A DNA stretch of 45,892 bases from Novosphingobium sp. Chol11. Lineage in GTDB: Bacteria > Pseudomonadota > Alphaproteobacteria > Sphingomonadales > Sphingomonadaceae. Of the stretch, positions 5,249-37,280 are shown piece after piece. The translations under genes and the position numbers were made by a program. The notes beneath the pieces are model-generated. The model did no database searches. It was given only the letters and a program-made list of their open reading frames with translations, and had not been told where the DNA came from. The stretch is taken from contig NZ_CAMBTS010000014.1 of the NCBI RefSeq assembly GCF_945870625.1, positions 1-45,892 of the forward strand, in the 5' to 3' direction. Numbering within the stretch: the stretch's first letter is position 1; each line of letters begins with the position of its first letter.

Positions 5249-5899
5249 TTAGGCCTGCGCGAGAATTTCGGCAATGGCGGCGGTCACAGTATCCATCGCC
5301 GCCATGCCATCGACGCGGGCAACGATCCCGCGCGCTTCATAGATCGGCAGGATCGGCGCGGTCTTGGTGCGGTATTCGGCCATGCGGGTGCGCACGGTTG
5401 CTTCGTTGTCGTCCGGGCGGCGCTTGAACTCGTGGCCGCCGCATCGATCGCAGGTTCCGGCCACAGCGGGCTGTTCGAACCTGTCGTGATAGCCTTTGCC
5501 GCAGGACGCGCATGTGAAGCGGCCGGTAATGCGCTCGACCAGCGCATCCTCGTCGACGGCGAGTTCGATTACATGGCTCAGCGCGCGGCCGCGCGCGGCG
5601 AGAATGGTTTCCAGCGAAGCCGCTTGCGGCGCAGTGCGCGGATAGCCGTCGAAAATGGCTCCCTGATCGCCGGGCATTTGATCAAGCTCCTCGCCGATCA
5701 GCGCCGAGACGATATCATCCGAAACCAGCCCCCCAGCTTCCATCACCGCCTTGGCCTGAAGCCCGACCGGCGTGCCTGCCTTGACCGCCGCACGCAGCAT
5801 GTCGCCGGTCGAAAGCTGCTTCATGCCAAAGCTATCTACAAGCCGCTGGGCTTGCGTGCCCTTGCCCGCGCCCGGCGGTCCCAACAGGATGATATTCAA
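5249..5899 (-). CDS. adk: Adenylate kinase, zinc-LID type
   Basis: Catalyses ATP + AMP to 2 ADP in the cytoplasm. The P-loop GPPGAGKGTQ is at residues 7-16, and DGYPRT at residues 84-89 contributes to the AMP site. The LID contains CASC (130-133) and CDRC (150-153), the four-cysteine zinc-binding LID. The start is a TTG at 5899 (MNIILLGPPG), preceded by GGGGA; no ATG is available at the right place. The 216-residue length fits. It follows secY by 39 bp, the classical spc order, but here it is the last gene before an unrelated island instead of leading to rpsM. Confidence 0.95.
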   Translation of the reverse strand: MNIILLGPPGAGKGTQAQRLVDSFGMKQLSTGDMLRAAVKAGTPVGLQAKAVMEAGGLVSDDIVSALIGEELDQMPGDQGAIFDGYPRTAPQAASLETILAARGRALSHVIELAVDEDALVERITGRFTCASCGKGYHDRFEQPAVAGTCDRCGGHEFKRRPDDNEATVRTRMAEYRTKTAPILPIYEARGIVARVDGMAAMDTVTAAIAEILAQA

Positions 5900-5938
5900 A
5901 CGCAGTCCCCCGGTTAACCGCCTTCTATCGCGCAACGA

Positions 5939-7306
5939 TCAGCGCAGGCGGCCTTTTAGTTTGGCCTTCTTGATCAGGTCGCCATACTGGTGCGCCAGCA
6001 GATGCGATTGGATCTGGGTAATTGTATCGACCGTCACATTGACCACAATCAGCAAGCTGGTACCACCGAAAAACAGCGAGCCCATGCCGGTTTCGGCCAT
6101 AATCCATTCGGGCAAGACGCACACCAGCGTGATATAGCCCGCACCCAGCACGGTGATGCGCGTCAGCACATAGTCGAGATAGACCTCGGTGTTCTTGCCC
6201 GGGCGGATGCCTGGGATGAAACCGCCGTTCTTCTTGAGATTGTCGGCAGTCTCTTCGGGATTGAACACGACTGCGGTATAGAAAAACGCAAAGAAGATGA
6301 TCCCGGCGGCATAAAGCAGCATGTAGACCGGCTTGCCGTGGCCAAGATACTGGTTGAGGCCGACGATGAACTTGTCCGTGAACGAATCCGGCGAGACAGC
6401 GTTGCCCGCAAATTGCGTGATCGTCAGCGGCAACAGCAACAGCGAGCTGGCAAAGATCGGCGGAATCACGCCTGCGGTATTGAGCTTGAGCGGCAAGTGG
6501 CTGCGGTCTGCGGCCATCATCCCGCGCTGCGTGGCGCGCTTGGGATACTGGATCAGCAATCGCCGCGAGGCCCGTTCGAAAAAGCAGATGAACACGACGA
6601 CCCCGACGAGCAGCGCCAGCACGCCGACGATCACAAACGGGCTGAGCGAGCCTGTGCGTCCCTGATCGAACAAGTTGACCACGAATGTCGGCATCTGCGC
6701 GACAATGCCCGCCATGATGATCAACGAGATGCCATTGCCAATGCCGCGGCTGGTGATCTGCTCGCCCAGCCAGAGCAGGAACATCGTGCCGCCGACCAGG
6801 CTGATCACGGCGCCGACGCGGAACATATAGCCCGGCGCGACCACTGCCTGCAGCCCGCTCGATGCGCCGAACGCCTCAAGCCCGCTGGCAAGAAACCAGC
6901 CCTGGATGGCGGTGAGGAACACTGCGCCATAGCGGGTATACTGGTTGAGCTTCTTGCGTCCGGTCTCGCCTTCCTTTTTCAACGCGGTCAGCGAAGGGTG
7001 GAGCGAAGAGGCCAGCTGCACCACGATCGAGGCGGTGATATAGGGCATCACGCCCAGCGCGATCAGGCTCATCCGCTCGAGCGAACCGCCCGAAAACGCA
7101 TTGAAGATATCGAGAATGCCGCCGCGGGTTTTGCCCGCCAAGGTCTCGAGGATCAACGGATTGATGCCCGGCAGCGGCACGAAGCTCAAAAACCGGAAGA
7201 CAATCAGCGCGCCGATCGTGAACCAGATGCGGCTCTTGAGTTCCGTCGCTTTCGAGAAATTGGCGAAACTGATCGTGCTGGCGATATTATCGGCGCGTGA
7301 TGCCAT
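5939..7306 (-). CDS. secY: Preprotein translocase subunit SecY
   Basis: The central channel of the Sec translocon, which takes unfolded precursors across or into the inner membrane. The 455-residue product has about ten hydrophobic segments. It contains the FSGGSLERMS and GVMPYITASIV blocks near the plug and lateral gate, and the cytoplasmic loop with ITSRGIGNGISLII. Length and N-terminus match alphaproteobacterial SecY. It sits between rplO (168 bp upstream) and adk. A long plus-strand ORF opposite it (436 codons) is a GC-driven shadow. Confidence 0.98.
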   Translation of the reverse strand: MASRADNIASTISFANFSKATELKSRIWFTIGALIVFRFLSFVPLPGINPLILETLAGKTRGGILDIFNAFSGGSLERMSLIALGVMPYITASIVVQLASSLHPSLTALKKEGETGRKKLNQYTRYGAVFLTAIQGWFLASGLEAFGASSGLQAVVAPGYMFRVGAVISLVGGTMFLLWLGEQITSRGIGNGISLIIMAGIVAQMPTFVVNLFDQGRTGSLSPFVIVGVLALLVGVVVFICFFERASRRLLIQYPKRATQRGMMAADRSHLPLKLNTAGVIPPIFASSLLLLPLTITQFAGNAVSPDSFTDKFIVGLNQYLGHGKPVYMLLYAAGIIFFAFFYTAVVFNPEETADNLKKNGGFIPGIRPGKNTEVYLDYVLTRITVLGAGYITLVCVLPEWIMAETGMGSLFFGGTSLLIVVNVTVDTITQIQSHLLAHQYGDLIKKAKLKGRLR

Positions 7307-7474
7307 TGGTGGAGCTCAAGCCTTGTTGTTGGCGCGGCGGCGAGACGAAACCGCCGCGCGCCGCAATCCAAGTCATATAGGGATGGTTCGGCAATGTCGA
7401 ACCCCATGCAGCGCAATTTCCGGGCAGCGGAGGGTAAAAAAGCCGCCGCCCGAAACACTGCATCAATCAGCGCA

Positions 7475-8011
7475 TCACTTGCCCCGGGCTGCGGCCTTCT
7501 CAGCCTTGTTCACTTCGCGGCGCGCGGTCTTCTTCTCGTGCTCGCTAGGCTGCGCCTCAGGCAACACAACCGAACCGCCAGCCTTGGCCACCGCTTCGAC
7601 CGCGCCTTTGCTGGCCCCTGCAACATGGAACGTCACCGCCGAGGTAATCTCGCCCTTGGCCAGCAACCGCACGCCATCCTTGCCGCCGCGGCCAAGGCCA
7701 GCGGCCTGCAGCGCAGCATGATCGACCGGCTGCGAGACATCGAGCTTGCCCGCGTCGATCGACTTCTGGACCATGCCGATGTTCACTTCGGCGAAATCCT
7801 TGGCGAAGATATTGTTGAAGCCGCGCTTTGGAATGCGCATGTGCAGCGGCATCTGGCCGCCCTCGAAGCCGTTGATCGCGACGCCCGAACGTGCTTTCGC
7901 ACCCTTCTGGCCGCGCCCGGCGGTCTTGCCCTTGCCCGAGCCAATGCCCCGGCCGACGCGCATCCGGCCTTTGCGGGCACCGTCGTTGTCGCGGATATCA
8001 TTCAATTTCAT
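7475..8011 (-). CDS. rplO: 50S ribosomal protein L15
   Basis: L15 is a late-assembling 23S rRNA-binding protein of the large subunit. The 178-residue product opens [20 protein letters not shown] followed by the [14 protein letters not shown] glycine/lysine extension typical of L15, and contains the conserved [18 protein letters not shown] block. The C-terminus is longer than in E. coli and ends in a charged Lys/Ala tail. It normally follows rpmD directly; here a regulator and a kup gene intervene. Confidence 0.97.
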
Positions 8012-8058
8012 GGTTCTGCACTCGCTTTCGCTTTGAGTCGCGCTGATGGAAGCTGTGG

Positions 8059-8087
8059 CCCTTAAGCGAAGCGGTGGGCAATGTCAC
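8059..8087 (-). promoter_or_regulatory. Candidate promoter of rplO-secY-adk
   Basis: On the minus strand GTGACA and TAAGGG are separated by 17 bp, about 50 bp before rplO. The CGCTTAAG octamer at the -10 also occurs at the same distance in the rpsM candidate promoter. It lies in the 112-bp gap after the KdpD-KdpE-like gene and would let rplO-secY-adk be transcribed independently of the upstream spc genes. Visual call. Confidence 0.4.
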
Positions 8088-8123
8088 CCCCTTGCGGGCG
8101 ATCGGTCTGGCACCGGCTTCTGG

Positions 8124-9482
8124 TCACACGTTACTGGTGAGGCGGTATCCCACAGCTGGCTCGTTGATGATCAGTTCCACGTCGTCCGGGCCATTGCTCA
8201 GCTTGCGCCGCAAAGCGCTCACCGCCACCCGCAAGTAGTCGACATGATCCTCGTGTGCCGGCCCCCATACCGCCCGCAACAGATAGCGATGGCTGAGCAC
8301 GCGCCCCAGATTGCGGGCGAGTTCGGCCAGCACCGCGAACTCCTTGGGCGTCAGGTGCACCTGCCTCCCGCCTTTGCTTGCCGTGCGGCGATAGAGATCG
8401 ATAGCCAGGTCGCCGACAATCACCGGATCCTGATCCTGCGCAAGATCCAGATCGGCCAAATTATCAATAAGGCCGTTCAGCCGCGCGGTCTCGCCTGCCA
8501 TGATGTGCAGCACCTCGGCGTCGGCTTGCCCTGCGCGCTGCAGTTTGCGTAACCCTGTCGCAAGTCCGTGCAGCCGCGGGCGGATATCGTTGCCGATCGA
8601 TCCGAGCAGCGCCGAACGCAGGGCATCGCGCTCGCGCAGCATGATGTTCTCGCGCCCCGCGCTTTCCAGCCGCGCACGCGCCAGCGCCAGCGCCACCTGA
8701 TCAAGCAGGTTGCCCAGCAGCGAGGTGCCCTCGGCGGCGACCGGGGAGGCACCGTCATCGCGCGCAAGGCCGGCGGCGGCCAAGGCTTCCCCATTTGCGG
8801 TTCCGGGCGACGCGCAGACCGGATGGAACTGCCAATCGGTCAGGCTGCCGCGCGCGATGCCCCGGCCCGCTCGCGCCCCGCTGGAAAGCGCCTGCGCTGC
8901 AGCCGCCAGATCGCCCGGCGCAAACCCGTCTTTGCCCATCGTCGCGGCGATGACATGCGGCTCCGGCACCGGCGAAACGATGCAGGCATGGCATTCGAAG
9001 ATGCGCGCGAGTTCGGCAACGGCCACTTCGGCAATAGCCGCCTCGTTGCTGCATGAGAGCAGCCGCCCCGCAAATCCGGCAATCGTTGCATTGCGGCTGG
9101 CATAAAACGAGGCCAGCTCGGCTTGGGCGCGCAGCGAAGTCACAAGGTGGCTAGTCACAAGGCCGACCAGCAACAACATCGCCACTGTCACCCCATCGCC
9201 AGGATTGCGGATGAGCAGCGTAAAGTAAGGCTCGGTGAAAAAGAAATTGAACGCCAGCGTGCCCACGACGGCCGCCAGCAGCGCCAACCAGCGCCCGGCA
9301 AGCCCGGCAGCGGCCAGCACCGGGGGCACATAAAGCAGGACGACCGAAGAACTTCCCCAGCGCGCAGCAATGCCCAGACCCAGTGCGGTGGCCACGCCGG
9401 TCATCGCCAGCACCGCCCCGGCACCCTGCCAAGATAGGCCAAACGGCGTTGCGGCAAACGATGCAGGGTCTGGGCGGCTCAT
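8124..9482 (-). CDS. KdpD-like sensor fused to KdpE-like DNA-binding domain
   Basis: The 452-residue product has an unusual order. Residues 20-115 form four membrane helices with the KdpD-type block TLAFNFFFTEPYFTLLIRNP (DUF4118). Residues 125-265 resemble the KdpD GAF region. Residues 266-345 resemble the KdpD DHp helices, but the usual SISHD motif reads SIGND, so Asn298 replaces the phospho-acceptor His. There is no ATPase domain and no receiver. Residues 352-452 are an OmpR/KdpE winged helix (LTPKEFAVLAELARNLGRVL, VDYLRVAVSALRRKL). The N-terminal KdpD Walker-A/USP part is also absent. AGGA lies seven bases before the ATG. It is divergent from kup by 77 bp, so it is probably a membrane-bound one-component regulator of K+ uptake; this role is inferred. 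Confidence 0.85.
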   Translation of the reverse strand: MSRPDPASFAATPFGLSWQGAGAVLAMTGVATALGLGIAARWGSSSVVLLYVPPVLAAAGLAGRWLALLAAVVGTLAFNFFFTEPYFTLLIRNPGDGVTVAMLLLVGLVTSHLVTSLRAQAELASFYASRNATIAGFAGRLLSCSNEAAIAEVAVAELARIFECHACIVSPVPEPHVIAATMGKDGFAPGDLAAAAQALSSGARAGRGIARGSLTDWQFHPVCASPGTANGEALAAAGLARDDGASPVAAEGTSLLGNLLDQVALALARARLESAGRENIMLRERDALRSALLGSIGNDIRPRLHGLATGLRKLQRAGQADAEVLHIMAGETARLNGLIDNLADLDLAQDQDPVIVGDLAIDLYRRTASKGGRQVHLTPKEFAVLAELARNLGRVLSHRYLLRAVWGPAHEDHVDYLRVAVSALRRKLSNGPDDVELIINEPAVGYRLTSNV

Positions 9483-9531
9483 CGCGCCATCCTAAGGCGT
9501 TATGCCCGCAAAGTCGCGTCCCGCCTCATGT

Positions 9532-9543
9532 TTGCGTGCGCAA
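9532..9543. promoter_or_regulatory. Candidate operator between regulator and kup
   Basis: TTGCG-TG-CGCAA, a 5-bp inverted repeat with a 2-bp centre, lies in the 77-bp divergent gap between the KdpD-KdpE-like gene and kup. It is short and could occur by chance, but its position between two divergent starts makes it a reasonable binding-site candidate. Confidence 0.25.
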
Positions 9544-9559
9544 TCCCCATGGAAACTTA

Positions 9560-11506
9560 ATGCCCTTGGCGTCCACATCGCGTGACATGACACAGCCAGC
9601 ACCTGCCGAATCTTCGGCCTCACCCATTCCTCCACAACCCGCGCAAGGCGCCAGCCGCTCTGTGCTTACCCTTGGCGCGCTCGGCGTGGTCTTCGGCGAT
9701 ATCGGCACCAGTCCGCTCTATGCGCTGCAAGCCACGCTGGACCCGCGCTATCACCTCCGCGCGGCAGTCACCGATCTCTATGGCATCGTCAGCCTCATCT
9801 TCTGGGGCTTCGTGTTCGTGGTCACGGTGAAATACGTTTTCATCGTCATGCGCTGCGACAATCGCGGCGAGGGCGGCAGCCTTGCGCTTTATGCGCTGAT
9901 CAACCGCGAACTCGGGGCCGCCACGCCAAAACGCTGGCTCTTGGTTGGCGCGCTGTTTGCCACCTCGCTGTTCTTCGCCGATGCGATGCTCACCCCGGCC
10001 ATTTCGGTGATCTCGGCAGTCGAAGGGCTCGGCGTGGTCAGTTCGGCGTTCAAGCCTTGGATCGTCTGGATTGCGCTGGCGATCCTGATTGGCCTGTTCG
10101 CCATCCAGCGCCACGGCACCGATCGCGTTGGCCGCCTGTTCGGCCCGGTCATGCTCGTCTATTTTATCACGATTTCAGCCATGGGGTTGTATCACATCGC
10201 GCAGACGCCGCAGGTGCTTGGTGCGCTCAATCCGATCTGGATGGTAACCTACTTCACCGCGCACCCGCTCTTCGCCTTCCTCTCGCTCGGCGCGATCGTT
10301 TACGCGATCACGGGCACTGAGGCGCTCTATGCCGATATGGGGCACTTCGGACGCGTGCCGATCACCATCGCGTGGCTGGCAATCTGCTTCCCTGCGCTGA
10401 TGCTCAACTACATGGGACAGGCTGCGATGCTCCTTCGCAACCCCGAGTTCATCGACAATCCTTTTTTCCACATGGTCCCCCCGCAGCTGACGATACCGCT
10501 CCTTGTGATTGCGACACTTGCCACGATCATCGCCAGCCAGGCGGTCATCTCCGGCGCGTTCTCGGTCACCCAGCAGGCCATCCAGCTCGGCTTCATGCCG
10601 CGGCTCCGAATCCTCCACACCTCCTCCCAAGCGCGCGGCCAAATCTACATTCCGGCGATCAACTGGGCGCTGGCGGTGATGGTCGCTGTTCTGGTGATGG
10701 GCTTCCGCGCCTCCGCTGCGATGCTGCCCGCTTATGGCCTGGCGGTCGTCGGCACCATGCTGATCACCACGCTCATGCAATATGTCGTTGTCTTCCGCAT
10801 CTGGCGCGGTCCGTGGTGGCGCGGTGCCATCGGCTTTGTCGTCTTCGTCACCATTGATGTCGTGCTTCTCGCCTCGGGCGCAACCAAACTGTTTGAAGGC
10901 GCTTGGTTCCCGATCTTGGTGGGCCTCGTGATCTTCACGCTCCTGACCACCTGGTCCACTGGTCGGCGCCTGATGCGCGAATCCATGATGGAGGATGGCC
11001 TGACGCTGCCAGGCTTCATCACCTCGATCACCGGATCGGTGCACCGGGTTCGCGGCACTTCGGTGTTCCTCTCGGCCTCGCCAACCGGGTTGCCTGCGGC
11101 ACTCCTGCATAATCTCAAGCACAATCAGGTCTTGCACGAACGTGTGGTGCTGCTCACTGTCGAGGTCGAGGAGGTGCCGCAGGTCGATCCCGCCTCCCGC
11201 GCCGAAATCCACCCCGAGGGCCACGGCTTCTTCCGCGTAATCCTGCACTATGGCTTCATGGAAGACGTTGATATCCCGCGTGATCTCGCCGCCGCTGCGG
11301 TGCAGACCGGCATCCCGTTCGAACCGCTCCAAACCAGCTATTTCCTCGGTCGCCAGAAACTGATCGCCTCCAGCGCGGTGCCGGGTATGGCGCTGTGGCG
11401 GGAACATCTGTTTGCATGGATGCTCAAACTCTCCGAGAGCGCGATGGATTTCTTCAAGCTGCCGAGCAACCGTGTTGTCGAACTGGGCAGCCAGCTTCGC
11501 ATCTAG
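9560..11506 (+). CDS. kup: Kup-family low-affinity K+ transporter (copy 1)
   Basis: A KUP/HAK/KT potassium uptake protein, probably a K+/H+ symporter of the inner membrane. From ATG 9560 (GGAA upstream) the product has 648 residues; ATG 9587 is an alternative. GVVFGDIGTSPLYAL opens the first membrane segment, as in all Kup proteins, and about twelve hydrophobic segments follow, with TGTEALYADMGHFG in the middle. The soluble C-terminal domain ends RVVELGSQLRI. It lies antisense inside the spc operon and divergent from the KdpD-like regulator. A paralogue is at 35,358. Confidence 0.95.
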   Translation: MPLASTSRDMTQPAPAESSASPIPPQPAQGASRSVLTLGALGVVFGDIGTSPLYALQATLDPRYHLRAAVTDLYGIVSLIFWGFVFVVTVKYVFIVMRCDNRGEGGSLALYALINRELGAATPKRWLLVGALFATSLFFADAMLTPAISVISAVEGLGVVSSAFKPWIVWIALAILIGLFAIQRHGTDRVGRLFGPVMLVYFITISAMGLYHIAQTPQVLGALNPIWMVTYFTAHPLFAFLSLGAIVYAITGTEALYADMGHFGRVPITIAWLAICFPALMLNYMGQAAMLLRNPEFIDNPFFHMVPPQLTIPLLVIATLATIIASQAVISGAFSVTQQAIQLGFMPRLRILHTSSQARGQIYIPAINWALAVMVAVLVMGFRASAAMLPAYGLAVVGTMLITTLMQYVVVFRIWRGPWWRGAIGFVVFVTIDVVLLASGATKLFEGAWFPILVGLVIFTLLTTWSTGRRLMRESMMEDGLTLPGFITSITGSVHRVRGTSVFLSASPTGLPAALLHNLKHNQVLHERVVLLTVEVEEVPQVDPASRAEIHPEGHGFFRVILHYGFMEDVDIPRDLAAAAVQTGIPFEPLQTSYFLGRQKLIASSAVPGMALWREHLFAWMLKLSESAMDFFKLPSNRVVELGSQLRI

Positions 11507-11564
11507 AACCGGGGGTGCTTTCTACACCAATCTGCCCGCGCATTGCGCTGGCAGTGCACAAACG

Positions 11565-11598
11565 AATAGGGCCCCGGCATTGCTGCCGGGGCCCTATT
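11565..11598. terminator. Perfect 15-bp hairpin between kup and rpmD
   Basis: AATAGGGCCCCGGCA, loop TTGC, then the exact reverse complement. It lies between the convergent 3' ends of kup (ends 11506) and rpmD (ends 11629) and can serve as a bidirectional terminator. Read on the minus strand it is followed by TCGTTTG, somewhat T-rich. It would end the transcript from rpsE-rpmD before the kup insertion. Confidence 0.7.
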
Positions 11599-11628
11599 CA
11601 TGTCCGCGCAAAAGCGAAGCAAAAACCG

Positions 11629-11805
11629 TCAGTCGATGATCTGCACCATATGCGGTAGCTTGGCGATGGCACCGCGCACTTCGGCGGTGTCTTCGCGTTC
11701 GACCACGCGGTTCATTTTGCCGAGGCCGAGGCCGATCAGCATTTGCATCTGCTTTTCAGGGCGGCGGATCGGCGAGCCGACCTGTTTGATCTTGATGGTG
11801 GCCAT
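11629..11805 (-). CDS. rpmD: 50S ribosomal protein L30
   Basis: L30 is a small peripheral protein of the large subunit. Translation from ATG 11805 gives 58 residues beginning MATIKIKQVGSPIRRPEKQM and ending AKLPHMVQIID. The conserved GSPIRRP and GLGLGKMN motifs are present and the length is typical. It is five bp downstream of rpsE. In most bacteria rplO follows immediately; here the next minus-strand gene is the KdpD-KdpE-like regulator, and a strong hairpin sits 30 bp after the rpmD stop. Confidence 0.96.
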   Translation of the reverse strand: MATIKIKQVGSPIRRPEKQMQMLIGLGLGKMNRVVEREDTAEVRGAIAKLPHMVQIID

Positions 11806-11810
11806 GTTGC

Positions 11811-12566
11811 TTACTCCACAATGGCTTCGGCGGCGACGTCTGCCTCCGCCGCAGTGGCGCCGCCCCGGCCAAGTAGGTCGGCGACCTTCTTGCCCCGGCG
11901 CTGCGCGACAGACTTGGGCGAGGTCTGCTCGCCCAGCGCGTCGAACGTGGCGCGGATCATGTTGTAGGGGTTCGAGCTGCCGATCGACTTGGTCACCACA
12001 TCGGCAACGCCAAGGCTTTCGAACACGGCGCGCATAGGGCCGCCCGCGATGATCCCGGTGCCGGCCGGAGCCGACCGCACGTTGACCTTGCCTGCGCCAA
12101 ACCGGCCCTTGCCGTCATGGTGCAAGGTGCGACCTTCCTTGAGCGACACGCGGATCATCTGCTTCTTGGCAGAGGCGGTCGCCTTGGTGATGGCCTCGGG
12201 CACTTCGCGCGCCTTGCCATGGCCAAAGCCAACCCGGCCCTTGCCATCGCCGACCACGACGAGCGCGGCGAAACCAAAGCGCTTGCCGCCCTTCACCGTC
12301 TTGGACACGCGGTTGATGTGCACCAGCTTTTCGATCAGCTCTTCGCCGCCTGCATCGTCGCCGCCGCGTCCGCCGCGACGATCGTCGCGCCGACCACCGC
12401 CGCCGCCGCGATTGGGGCCGCTGCCGCCGCGATCGCCGCCGCCGCCCGGGCCGCCGCGATCATTCCCGCCGCGACCACGGCCGCCGCGTCCGCGCGGTGC
12501 TTCGCCGCCGGGAGCATCCGCGCCGGGAGCAAGGGCTGCGCCATCGAGAGTGATATCATCAGCCAT
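11811..12566 (-). CDS. rpsE: 30S ribosomal protein S5 with RGG-rich extension
   Basis: S5 sits at the 30S decoding region and affects fidelity and mRNA unwinding. The core (about residue 75 onwards, [20 protein letters not shown]) has the double-stranded RNA-binding and fidelity regions and matches the family. Residues 1-74 are an added low-complexity segment of Gly, Arg and Asp ([23 protein letters not shown]), making the protein 251 residues against about 167 in E. coli. The extension resembles eukaryotic RGG boxes and is presumably disordered and RNA-binding. It sits between rplR and rpmD. Confidence 0.97.
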
Positions 12567-12568
12567 AC

Positions 12569-12919
12569 TCAGAACTCCAACCCGCCCTCGCGGGCAGCAT
12601 CAGCCAGCGCCTTGACGCGGCCATGGAACAGGAAACCGCCGCGATCGAACACGACAGCAGTGATGCCAGCGGCAACTGCCTTTTCGGCAATCTCCTTGCC
12701 GACCAGCGCGGCCGCATCGATATTGGCACCGATGGCCTTCTGGCCTTTGACCAGCGTCGAGGCGGCAGCCAGCGTCTTGCCAGCGGCATCGTCGATAATC
12801 TGGGCGTAGATGTGGCGGCCCGAACGGTGGATCGAAAGGCGCAGTCGGCCGCGCGAGCGGGCCTTCAGCGCAGTGCGCACGCGTTGGCGGCGACGATCGA
12901 AAAGCGATAGCTTGGCCAT
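12569..12919 (-). CDS. rplR: 50S ribosomal protein L18
   Basis: L18 binds 5S rRNA and helps place it on the large subunit. The 116-residue product has the basic N-terminus [16 protein letters not shown], the [17 protein letters not shown] strand and the C-terminal [20 protein letters not shown] motif. Its ATG overlaps the rplF stop by one base (TAATG), and two bases separate it from rpsE, indicating translational coupling. Confidence 0.98.
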
Positions 12920-13452
12920 TACTTCTTCTTCCCTTCCTTGCGGAAGATGAACTCGCCGCGGTACTTGATGCCCTTGCCCTTGTAAGGCTCAGGCTTGCGC
13001 CAGCGGCGGATCTCGGCCGCAACCTGCCCGACCTTCTGCTTGTCGATGCCGATGATCTCGATCGTCGTGTTGTCCGGCGTCTTGATCTCGATGCCTTCGG
13101 GGATCGCATAATCGACGTCATGGCTGTAGCCGAGCTGCAGCTTGAGGTTCTTGCCCTGCGAAGCCGCGCGATAGCCGACGCCGGTGATCAGCAGCGTCTT
13201 GGTGTAGCCCTCGGTCACGCCGACCATCAGGTTATCGACCAGCGTGCGCTGCATGCCCCAGAATGCCCGCGCCGCCTTGGTAGCGTTGGCCGGCTTCACG
13301 AGAACGGCTTCACCATCCAGCGTGTAGCTGATCTCTTCGCGCATGGTGAGCGTGAGCGTGCCCTTGGGGCCTTTCACGGTCAGCACGTTGTCCGCGATAT
13401 TGGCGGTGACGCCCTTGGGGATCGTCACCGGCTTCTTGCCGATGCGGCTCAT
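12919..13452 (-). CDS. rplF: 50S ribosomal protein L6
   Basis: L6 binds helix 97 of 23S rRNA near the factor-binding site. The product of 177 residues opens [15 protein letters not shown] and ends with the conserved [14 protein letters not shown] block followed by RKEGKKK. Both ends overlap neighbours by one base, rpsH upstream and rplR downstream, typical of the tightly packed spc operon. Confidence 0.98.
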
Positions 13453-35233: not shown

Positions 35234-35357
35234 GCGCGGGAGGCTCGACGCGCCGTTGCGCCGGTAGCAATCGATCTGCCGGTTGGTGCCCTCCCCGGTC
35301 TTCGGCAGCCCACGAAATCTCTCGCAGTGGCAGCAAGACAAGCGTAATCGAGCGGCG

Positions 35358-37280
35358 ATGAACCCCATCACGACTCATGCTGACGCGATAGCGCCAGCCG
35401 CGCTAGCCCATCAGGCTGGCCATCAGAAGCAGAGCCTCGCCACGCTTTCGATCGGCGCGATCGGCGTTGTGTTTGGCGATATCGGCACCTCGCCGCTCTA
35501 TTCGCTGCGCGAAAGCTTTATCGGCCACCACCCGCTGGCGGTTGACCGCCCGCATATCTTCGGTGTGATTTCGCTCATCTTCTGGACGATGATGCTGATC
35601 GTCACGGTCAAATATGTGTTCATCATCCTGCGCGCGGACAACAAGGGCGAAGGCGGCAGCCTTGCGCTGCTAGCCCTGCTCGGACGCCGGCTGGGCGAAT
35701 CGCGGTGGAGCGCGCCGATGGTCATGCTCGGCCTGATCGCCACCGCGCTGTTTTTCGGTGATGCGATCATCACCCCGGCGATCTCGGTACTTTCGGCGAT
35801 TGAGGGGCTGACCGTGGTCCATCCCGGCTTCGAAAAGCTGGTGCTGCCGATCTCGGTGGCGATCCTGATTGCCCTGTTCGCGATCCAGTCGCGCGGCACT
35901 GCGGCGATGGGCAAGCTGTTCGGCCCGGTCATGCTCGTCTATTTCGCCGTGCTGGCGGCGCTTGGGATCAACGGGATCACCCATGCTCCCGAAGTCCTGC
36001 TGTCGCTCAACCCGGTCTACGCAGCCAATTTCTTCCTGCTCGATCCGGGCCTTGGGTTTCTCGCGCTCGGCTCGGTCGTGCTGGCGGTGACTGGGGCCGA
36101 GGCGCTCTATGCCGATATGGGTCATTTCGGACGGCGCGCGATTATGGCGGCGTGGCTGTGGGTGGCCTTCCCCTGCCTGCTGCTCAACTATCTGGGACAA
36201 GCCGCGCTGATGCTGCGTGATCCGGCGATGGCGCAGAACCCGTTTTTCCTGATGGCCCCCGATTGGGCGCGGCTGCCGCTGGTGCTGCTCGCCACGCTGG
36301 CCACGATCATCGCCAGCCAGGCGGTCATCTCGGGCGCATTCTCGGTGGCGCAGCAGGCGGTCCAGCTCGGTTTCCTGCCGCGCATCCGCATTCTCCACAC
36401 CAGCGCCAGCGCCGCAGGGCAGATTTACGTGCCGGTGGTCAATTGGGGGCTGCTGGTGCTGGTCATCCTCGTCGTGCTCGGCTTTCGCAGTTCGAGCAAC
36501 CTCGCAGCCGCTTATGGCATCGCGGTGACTGGCACGATGTTCATCACCGCCGCCATGCTGGGCGTGCTAACCTTCGGCGTGTGGAAATGGCCGCCGCTGC
36601 TGGCGGGGCTCGCCACGGGCGTGTTCCTGCTGATCGACGGGGCCTATCTTGCATCCAACCTGATCAAGATCCCCGATGGCGGCTGGTTTCCGCTGGTGGT
36701 GGCGGCGGTCGCATTCGTGATGCTGACGACATGGGCCACCGGGCGGCGCATCCTGCGCGACCGGCTGGCCGAAGATTCGATGCCGTTCGATCTGTTCCTC
36801 AAATCGGTTGCGCTCAAGGTGCGCCGGGTTTCTGGCACCTCGGTTTTCCTCACCTCGACCACCGAGGGTATTCCGCCCGCTATCCTGCACAATCTCAAGC
36901 ACAACCACATCCTTCATGACCGGGTGGTGATCCTGACCGTGGTGATCGAAAGCGTGCCGCATGTGCCTCCCTCGGTCCGGCGCGAGGTCGAAGATATGGA
37001 CTGCGGATTCTACCGCATCATCCTCCACTTCGGGTTCATGGACGAGCCCGACATTCCCGCCGAGCTGGCGCAGGAAACCCGCGCCGGCGGGCCGTTCAAA
37101 CCGATGGACACCAGCTATTTCCTCGCCCGGCAAACGCTGCTCGCTTCGAAGCGGCCGGGTATGGCGATCTGGCGCGAAAAGCTTTTTGCCTGGATGATGC
37201 GCAACGCCGAAAGCGCGATGGTATTTTTCCGCCTGCCGACCAACCGGGTGATCGAGCTCGGAAGCCAGCTGGAAATCTAA
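35358..37280 (+). CDS. kup: Kup-family K+ transporter (copy 2)
   Basis: Second KUP potassium transporter in the window, 640 residues from ATG 35358. GAIGVVFGDIGTSPLYSLRE, TGAEALYADMGHFGRRAIM and the C-terminal NRVIELGSQLEI parallel the copy at 9560, and the whole sequence is closely similar along its length. The N-terminal 30 residues differ. It lies 124 bp after the TolC-like gene, and its stop overlaps the convergent modC stop by four bases. Unlike copy 1, no K+-sensor-like regulator is adjacent. Confidence 0.95.
   Translation: MNPITTHADAIAPAALAHQAGHQKQSLATLSIGAIGVVFGDIGTSPLYSLRESFIGHHPLAVDRPHIFGVISLIFWTMMLIVTVKYVFIILRADNKGEGGSLALLALLGRRLGESRWSAPMVMLGLIATALFFGDAIITPAISVLSAIEGLTVVHPGFEKLVLPISVAILIALFAIQSRGTAAMGKLFGPVMLVYFAVLAALGINGITHAPEVLLSLNPVYAANFFLLDPGLGFLALGSVVLAVTGAEALYADMGHFGRRAIMAAWLWVAFPCLLLNYLGQAALMLRDPAMAQNPFFLMAPDWARLPLVLLATLATIIASQAVISGAFSVAQQAVQLGFLPRIRILHTSASAAGQIYVPVVNWGLLVLVILVVLGFRSSSNLAAAYGIAVTGTMFITAAMLGVLTFGVWKWPPLLAGLATGVFLLIDGAYLASNLIKIPDGGWFPLVVAAVAFVMLTTWATGRRILRDRLAEDSMPFDLFLKSVALKVRRVSGTSVFLTSTTEGIPPAILHNLKHNHILHDRVVILTVVIESVPHVPPSVRREVEDMDCGFYRIILHFGFMDEPDIPAELAQETRAGGPFKPMDTSYFLARQTLLASKRPGMAIWREKLFAWMMRNAESAMVFFRLPTNRVIELGSQLEI

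Follow-up and report, generated by a model that had tools for sequence, protein, structure and literature searches.

Among the described systems closest to the protein considered here is KdpD/KdpE, in which two proteins communicate through a His-Asp relay. Phosphorylated KdpE is reported to dimerise and activate kdpFABC (PMC5458449), and K+ is reported to act on both the kinase and the phosphatase activity of E. coli KdpD (PMC5936718). Membrane-bound one-component regulators (TTRs), which include ToxR and CadC, are described as widespread, and some have been suggested to derive from two-component systems, with Rsp of Neisseria gonorrhoeae named among them (PMC10269533). Rsp is a PilS-PilR chimera that has been described in one species; it is reported to repress pilA (PMC10269533) and to be without action on pilE (PMC6528607). 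The hybrid TTRs of Bacteroides and other organisms likewise combine a sensor and a DNA-binding domain of two-component ancestry in one chain, and they are defined by a retained receiver, HATPase_c or HisKA domain (PMC10269533). The main text of that survey of TTRs names neither KdpD nor DUF4118 (PMC10269533), and no KdpD-KdpE fusion of the kind reported below is described among the matches listed from titles and abstract openings of the open-licence PMC literature.

The window analysed here, a stretch of 45,892 nucleotides from Novosphingobium sp. Chol11, contains such a fusion, transcribed divergently from kup. Its features are as follows.

8124..9482, minus strand: fusion ORF of 452 aa (ORF call; orthologues in other genomes)
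9111..9416, minus strand: DUF4118, KdpD-type membrane domain, residues 23-124 (Pfam E 7e-25; aligns with 2ksf)
8733..9110, minus strand: GAF-like region, about residues 125-250 (KdpD alignment; GAF_3 in relatives; boundary set by the structure model)
8442..8732, minus strand: DHp-like helices, about residues 251-347 (KdpD alignment; model helices 250-317 and 322-347)
8589..8591, minus strand: Asn298 codon, aligned with the phospho-accepting His of KdpD (alignment of 47 fusions and 27 unfused KdpDs)
8139..8423, minus strand: KdpE-type winged-helix DNA-binding domain, residues 354-448 (Pfam, solved KdpE chains, fold search)

The fusion has in common with KdpD/KdpE a homologous membrane domain, a DHp-like region, a winged helix, related DNA boxes and a K+ transport target. 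In contrast to the two-protein relay, however, it is a single chain that lacks the phospho-His, the HATPase, the receiver and the N-terminal Kdp domain, and its neighbour gene is kup instead of kdpFABC. Rsp resembles it in that a kinase sensor has been joined to the DNA-binding portion of the cognate regulator (PMC10269533). The parents are different, the two are of the same kind and not homologous as wholes, and the Kdp fusion, unlike Rsp, is kept across a family together with a conserved box. Rsp is a precedent in kind; what distinguishes the Kdp fusion is that it forms an entire clade, has retained its box and the kind of gene beside it, and can be compared with unfused relatives. The window protein is akin to the hybrid TTRs but possesses none of their three defining domains by Pfam. 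The initial annotation had likened it to ToxR and CadC, and this likeness holds for the membrane-bound one-component logic but not for the topology. In ToxR-like regulators the DNA-binding domain is N-terminal and the chain crosses the membrane once (PMC5936718), whereas the winged helix of the fusion is C-terminal, behind about four N-terminal membrane helices, and neither an N-terminal winged helix nor a single pass nor a periplasmic sensor domain is present.

Domain architecture and the lost relay chemistry

Two Pfam families match the window protein, DUF4118 at residues 23-124 and Trans_reg_C at residues 372-448 (E 2e-18), and the closest solved structures are the membrane domain of E. coli KdpD (2ksf) for the N-terminus and KdpE for the C-terminus. 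No further Pfam family was found in it at E<=1, whether HATPase, Response_reg, the N-terminal Kdp/USP region, GAF or HisKA. NCBIfam profiles align residues 18-305 with KdpD 399-680 (81 of 1123 bits) and residues 349-448 with KdpE 123-223 (76 of 325 bits), both far under the equivalog cut-offs. More specifically, the KdpD membrane domain is present while the phospho-His, HATPase and N-terminal Kdp/USP region of a KdpD are missing, and the Trans_reg_C winged helix is of KdpE type while a receiver with its phospho-Asp is absent (Pfam, E<=1). With membrane helices and a DNA-binding domain in one chain, the protein has the architecture of a one-component transmembrane transcription regulator. The best-matching unfused KdpDs are 33-40% identical to it up to about residue 346; the joint between the domains falls after the second DHp-like helix, ahead of the KdpE winged helix.

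A Pfam scan and a fold model were made with 17 of the 47 distinct fusion proteins. DUF4118 and Trans_reg_C occur in 17/17 of these proteins, GAF_3 in 9/17 and HisKA weakly in 2/17 (E<=1), and neither HATPase_c nor Response_reg appears in the E<=1 listing for any of them. The predicted structure has a mean pLDDT of 65.9 and a pTM of 0.41, with the lowest values in the membrane part. It places helices at residues 18-41, 52-61, 65-81 and 94-142, followed by a mixed region, a long helix at 250-317 and a second at 322-347; the winged helix is modelled with a local confidence near 80, and the top match in a fold search, DNA-bound KdpE, covers this part. Thus, the KdpD-like membrane block and the KdpE-type winged helix that had been read from the sequence alone are confirmed, as is the absence of the ATPase, the receiver and the N-terminal part. 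The GAF-like region and the DHp-like helices of the initial annotation fared less clearly, since neither GAF nor HisKA is matched in the window protein by Pfam. Both labels draw on the alignment with unfused KdpDs, on weaker matches in relatives and on a model of moderate confidence.

The loss of the relay chemistry is evident at the level of single residues. The window protein reads LLGSIGNDIRPRL, and because these residues share columns with the S-[VI]-[SG]-HDLRTPL of 26/27 unfused KdpDs (the 27th also has His), Asn298 aligns with the phospho-accepting His, as had been proposed. In the joint alignment this column is His in 27/27 unfused KdpDs and non-His in 47/47 distinct fusions (E19 N6 D6 Q6 S4 T3 R2 A1). 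Glu or Asp is thus found in 25/47 fusions, a replacement that might mimic a fixed signalling state. The Thr of HDLRT, four residues past the phospho-His column, serves the phosphatase reaction; 46/47 fusions have Pro at this position. In the recognition helix, R193 and R200 of KdpE correspond to R418 and R425 of the fusion and are kept in 47/47 proteins. The position of KdpE T215 is Asn in 47/47.

Residues N79 and D96 of the membrane domain (window about 9195-9248) are invariant in 47/47 fusions, and the aligned residues of E. coli KdpD are D and Y; because of this difference the input of the fusion may have changed, and both residues are candidates for a changed sensing site. A mapping of the K+-sensing residues of E. 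coli KdpD onto the fusion was dropped, as two of the three residue numbers considered did not fit the sequence. The two altered membrane residues, together with a GAF-like region in which 31 positions are conserved at >=95% among the fusions, would also suit a one-component kup regulator whose signal is a ligand of the GAF region, the membrane state or osmotic stress rather than K+. Such a signal seems rather unlikely, given that the membrane domain is by profile the most clearly KdpD-like part of the protein and that the target gene, kup, codes for a K+ transporter. For K+ or K+ need as the signal, the chances are considered to be about even.

Distribution, descent and selection

The search of sphingomonad genomes for the same architecture recovered the fusion repeatedly. 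Full-length fusions are present in 21/195 genomes of the genus and in 23/397 sampled genomes of the family (15/96 genera); because the two sets of carriers have two genomes in common, they represent 42 distinct carriers. Named carriers in the public genome set include Novosphingobium sediminis, N. fuchskuhlense, Sphingomonas edaphi and Erythrobacter oryzae. In an order-wide sample 13/296 genomes possess a full-length fusion, all of them within the Sphingomonadaceae, and a separate homologue search found none in 24 genomes of other families. The one distant match of the public set that was examined (L124, Clostridiales) was rejected as a fusion, because this KdpD has kept its His-box intact and its KdpE is a separate protein.

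Removal of identical copies left 47 distinct fusion proteins, the window's included. These lie together on one side of a branch that separates them from 27 unfused KdpDs (SH-aLRT 100). The exact sister of the fusion clade is unsure because its stem is long and the long KdpD L018 joins next to it. In some relatives KdpD is short, with open frames that span about 460-700 residues, and KdpE is separate, in several cases within 2 kb of a kup, which indicates that the N-terminal part of KdpD can be lost by itself.

The catalytic parts are gone, and the fusion could therefore be viewed as a decaying, functionless remnant of a two-component system, the term applied to gonococcal Rsp in a title that appears in reference lists (Carrick 2000). 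One copy (genome G165, L222 5391-6637) is indeed split into three frames beside a remaining kup and a perfect box, through either decay or sequencing error. This view is scarcely credible in light of the rates of substitution: across 11 pairs, dN/dS for the complete protein ranges from 0.06 to 0.18 and does not exceed 0.26 for the membrane, GAF, DHp or winged-helix parts, and the highest value, 0.48, belongs to a short linker of one pair only. Near-invariant positions moreover number 101 in the fusions, of which 36 belong to the winged helix, and the intergenic box has been retained. By these comparisons the fusions are one clade under purifying selection. An origin by assembly error or chance is excluded by the independent genomes that carry the fusion, and a pseudogene is rejected on the basis of the full-length copies in many genomes and the low dN/dS.

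The initial annotation had proposed that the Kdp relay collapsed into one membrane-tethered chain. This is strongly supported by the family-wide orthologues and by the loss of the phospho-His from every one of them; the observations that it had held to speak against its reading, namely a HATPase, a His at residue 298 or an assembly error, were not made.

The divergent kup gene and its conserved box

The region in front of the fusion contains the following features.

9587..11506, plus strand: divergent kup (named by NCBIfam/Pfam; ATG at 9587 inferred from conservation)
9542..9562, minus strand: putative operator, a conserved box whose minus-strand sequence is CATTAAGTTTCCATGGGGATT (47/47 loci)
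9574..9575, plus strand: CA dinucleotide behind the box (kept in 47/47 fusion loci)

The longest ORF containing the window's divergent kup starts at 9383, ahead of the inferred ATG. A divergent kup adjoins the fusion in all 57 other loci searched (46 distinct fusions, that of the window being the 47th), and with a box that occurs once in each fusion genome of the genus, as described below, the proposed link between the fusion and this gene is strongly supported. The gene itself is common: 190/195 genomes of the genus have it, and multiple copies are frequent. The window's genome has three: a second at 35283-37280 of the window, of a type that stands beside kdp or alone in relatives and has no box, and a third on contig C12.

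The kup genes of the fusion loci may have a history of their own. On kup trees a group termed type A, comprising those of the window, of 12 close relatives and of the loci L136, L151 and L186, lies apart from the other fusion-linked kups, while L136, L151 and L186 group elsewhere on the fusion tree. Holding the 16 type-A loci together on the fusion tree is disfavoured (AU test p 0.019), for a group that was picked after the kup tree had been viewed and with quick trees. This is moderate evidence that a kup gene was exchanged while the regulator and the box stayed. In another kup tree all fusion-linked kups can be kept to the same side of one branch (support 29), so that type A may be no more than a set of fast-evolving relatives of type B.

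In the window the kup-fusion pair lies inside an apparent spc ribosomal operon (5249-13452), between what we take, by reading of the sequences, to be rpmD at about 11.6-11.8 kb and rplO at 7475-8011; presumed secY and adk lie behind, and kup alone was named by profile. A gene for rplO was found in 12/13 fusion genomes searched, and no kup was near it in the stretches fetched around rplO outside the window. One relative has an unrelated 342-aa ORF ahead of rplO (L271 286-1314) and another has about 1.25 kb between rpmD and rplO (L278), so that this spot may accept insertions. The placement of the pair in the ribosomal operon may also be a join error of the draft genome.

The intergenic region contains a 22-bp footprint, GCATWAAGWTTCCATGTGGATT, in 47/47 loci, with 18-23 of 23 consensus letters matched. 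It is kept even though many of the fusion proteins are only about 50% identical to that of the window, and the flanking bases mostly carry little information, with the exception of one kept dinucleotide. The conserved DNA lies at the edge of the stretch 9483-9559 that the initial annotation had singled out for binding. It can be read as a direct repeat with an 11-bp period, the units being CATAAAGATTC and CATGTGGATTG. The half-sites described for E. coli KdpE, TTTATA and TTTACA, are 5 bp apart (PMC3264566) and therefore have the same period.

The distribution of the box follows that of the fusion. A search of the 195 genus genomes, allowing <=3 mismatches and using the reversed consensus as a control, found one site in each of 26 genomes; the control found none. 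The box is present in 21/21 fusion genomes versus 5/174 others (Fisher 8e-24, with kinship ignored), and that of the window is the only site in its genome at this threshold. Among the five other genomes with a site, G165 has its perfect site at the kup beside the fusion in three frames. In G186 a box with 2 mismatches lies ahead of a kup of divergent sequence (43% identity), which is followed on the same strand by a separate short kdpD and a kdpE (L223 5968-10046); this locus is possibly another kup-dedicated Kdp relay, still unfused. The remaining sites, in G109, G073 and G030 (3 mismatches each), were set aside as chance-like, since nothing in the 7-11 kb retrieved for them matched kup, Kdp or the fusion.

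The box of the window ends just 24 bp ahead of the inferred kup ATG, where promoter or leader elements can be conserved. The footprint could therefore be the site of another regulator, a promoter or a 5' leader, with the fusion acting elsewhere. This is improbable because the box tracks the fusion within the genus although kup is nearly universal there, and because its 11-bp repeat form is that of KdpE sites. A sigma-70-like promoter was looked for across 9440-9640, the surroundings of the box, and none was found. Binding of the fusion itself to the box is very probable.

Sites of the same kind seem to precede kdp genes. The 47 boxes, read on the kup strand, were turned into a matrix for scanning 28 regions upstream of kdpA. 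These regions stand for 81 genus genomes with kdpA, and those with kup beside kdp were partly chosen for that. The best match was on the kdp-coding strand in 25/28 kdpFABC upstream regions; it exceeded the 95th percentile of 100 shuffles in 20/28 and every shuffle in 12/28. Several of these regions have two boxes, 32-33 bp apart. The CA dinucleotide recurs at the offset of the fusion locus, or one base off, at 13/15 kdp-side sites, which were taken from 14/28 regions with a pattern written after the sites had been viewed. In 7/8 fetched kdpFABC loci (partly picked for kup beside kdp) kup is divergent to kdpA; the kdp locus maps omitted overlapping matches, and the kup of G033, missing there, was found in the kup search. 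From the matrix matches and the shared CA, the kup of the fusion locus appears to carry a kdp-type promoter module.

This kinship of the boxes raises the question of whether the fusion instead modulates an unfused KdpDE relay, by competing for KdpE boxes or by forming mixed dimers with KdpD. Three of the 42 fusion genomes do have kdpA, and two of these (G168, G169) possess a separate long KdpD. Such a role is nevertheless very unlikely. There is no kdpA match in the other 39, kdpA is rarer in the genus with the fusion (2/21) than without it (79/174; Fisher p 0.0017, kinship ignored), and G168 and G169 have one box each (<=3 mismatches), located at the fusion locus.

A relay probably reduced to one protein

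The reading that we favour, and regard as likely, is that the fusion is a one-component membrane-tethered transcription factor that arose once, from a KdpD-KdpE pair, and that binds 9542-9562 and sets kup transcription without phosphotransfer. As the main target, kup is quite probable. The membrane helices and the GAF-like region would form the input, and K+ need is a plausible candidate for the state that they sense. The DHp-like helices, their phospho-site lost, would act as dimeric signalling helices, and the fusion probably dimerises through them; this hairpin would pair two chains and convey a conformational change to their two winged helices, in place of the receiver. The output would be the KdpE winged helix, kept at the cytoplasmic face, so that the pair would bind both repeats of the box from the membrane. 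In this way the fusion would set the transcription of kup, and perhaps also its own.

Activation at low K+ is slightly favoured over repression. The isolated DNA-binding domain of E. coli KdpE is reported to bind half-sites yet to promote no expression in vivo (PMC3264566), and thus activation by the fusion may need more than tethering. Because the kinase and phosphatase activities are absent, K+ sensing by the fusion, if there is any, must work differently from that of E. coli KdpD.

A wider scenario is offered more tentatively, as possible if somewhat doubtful. A single ancestral reduction of the relay may have produced a stable, phosphorylation-free regulator in which the sensor membrane domain and the KdpE-type operator were retained, while the DHp hairpin became a passive coupling rod and the target shifted from kdpFABC, the high-affinity pump, to the kup permease. 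With about one site per genome, it would be a private membrane-tethered K+ switch.

The fusion is a naturally occurring example, spread across a family, in which sensor kinase and response regulator are reduced to one protein; its target gene, its putative operator and relatives that remain unfused are all available for comparison. With it one can test the idea that conformation alone lets the membrane and DHp parts of a kinase act on a DNA-binding domain, a question relevant to K+ sensing by KdpD. A further implication is that kup, a gene called constitutively expressed in E. coli (PMC5458449), would here be under transcriptional control of its own. If the wider scenario is true, evolution would here have proceeded from two components to one, opposite to the usual account.
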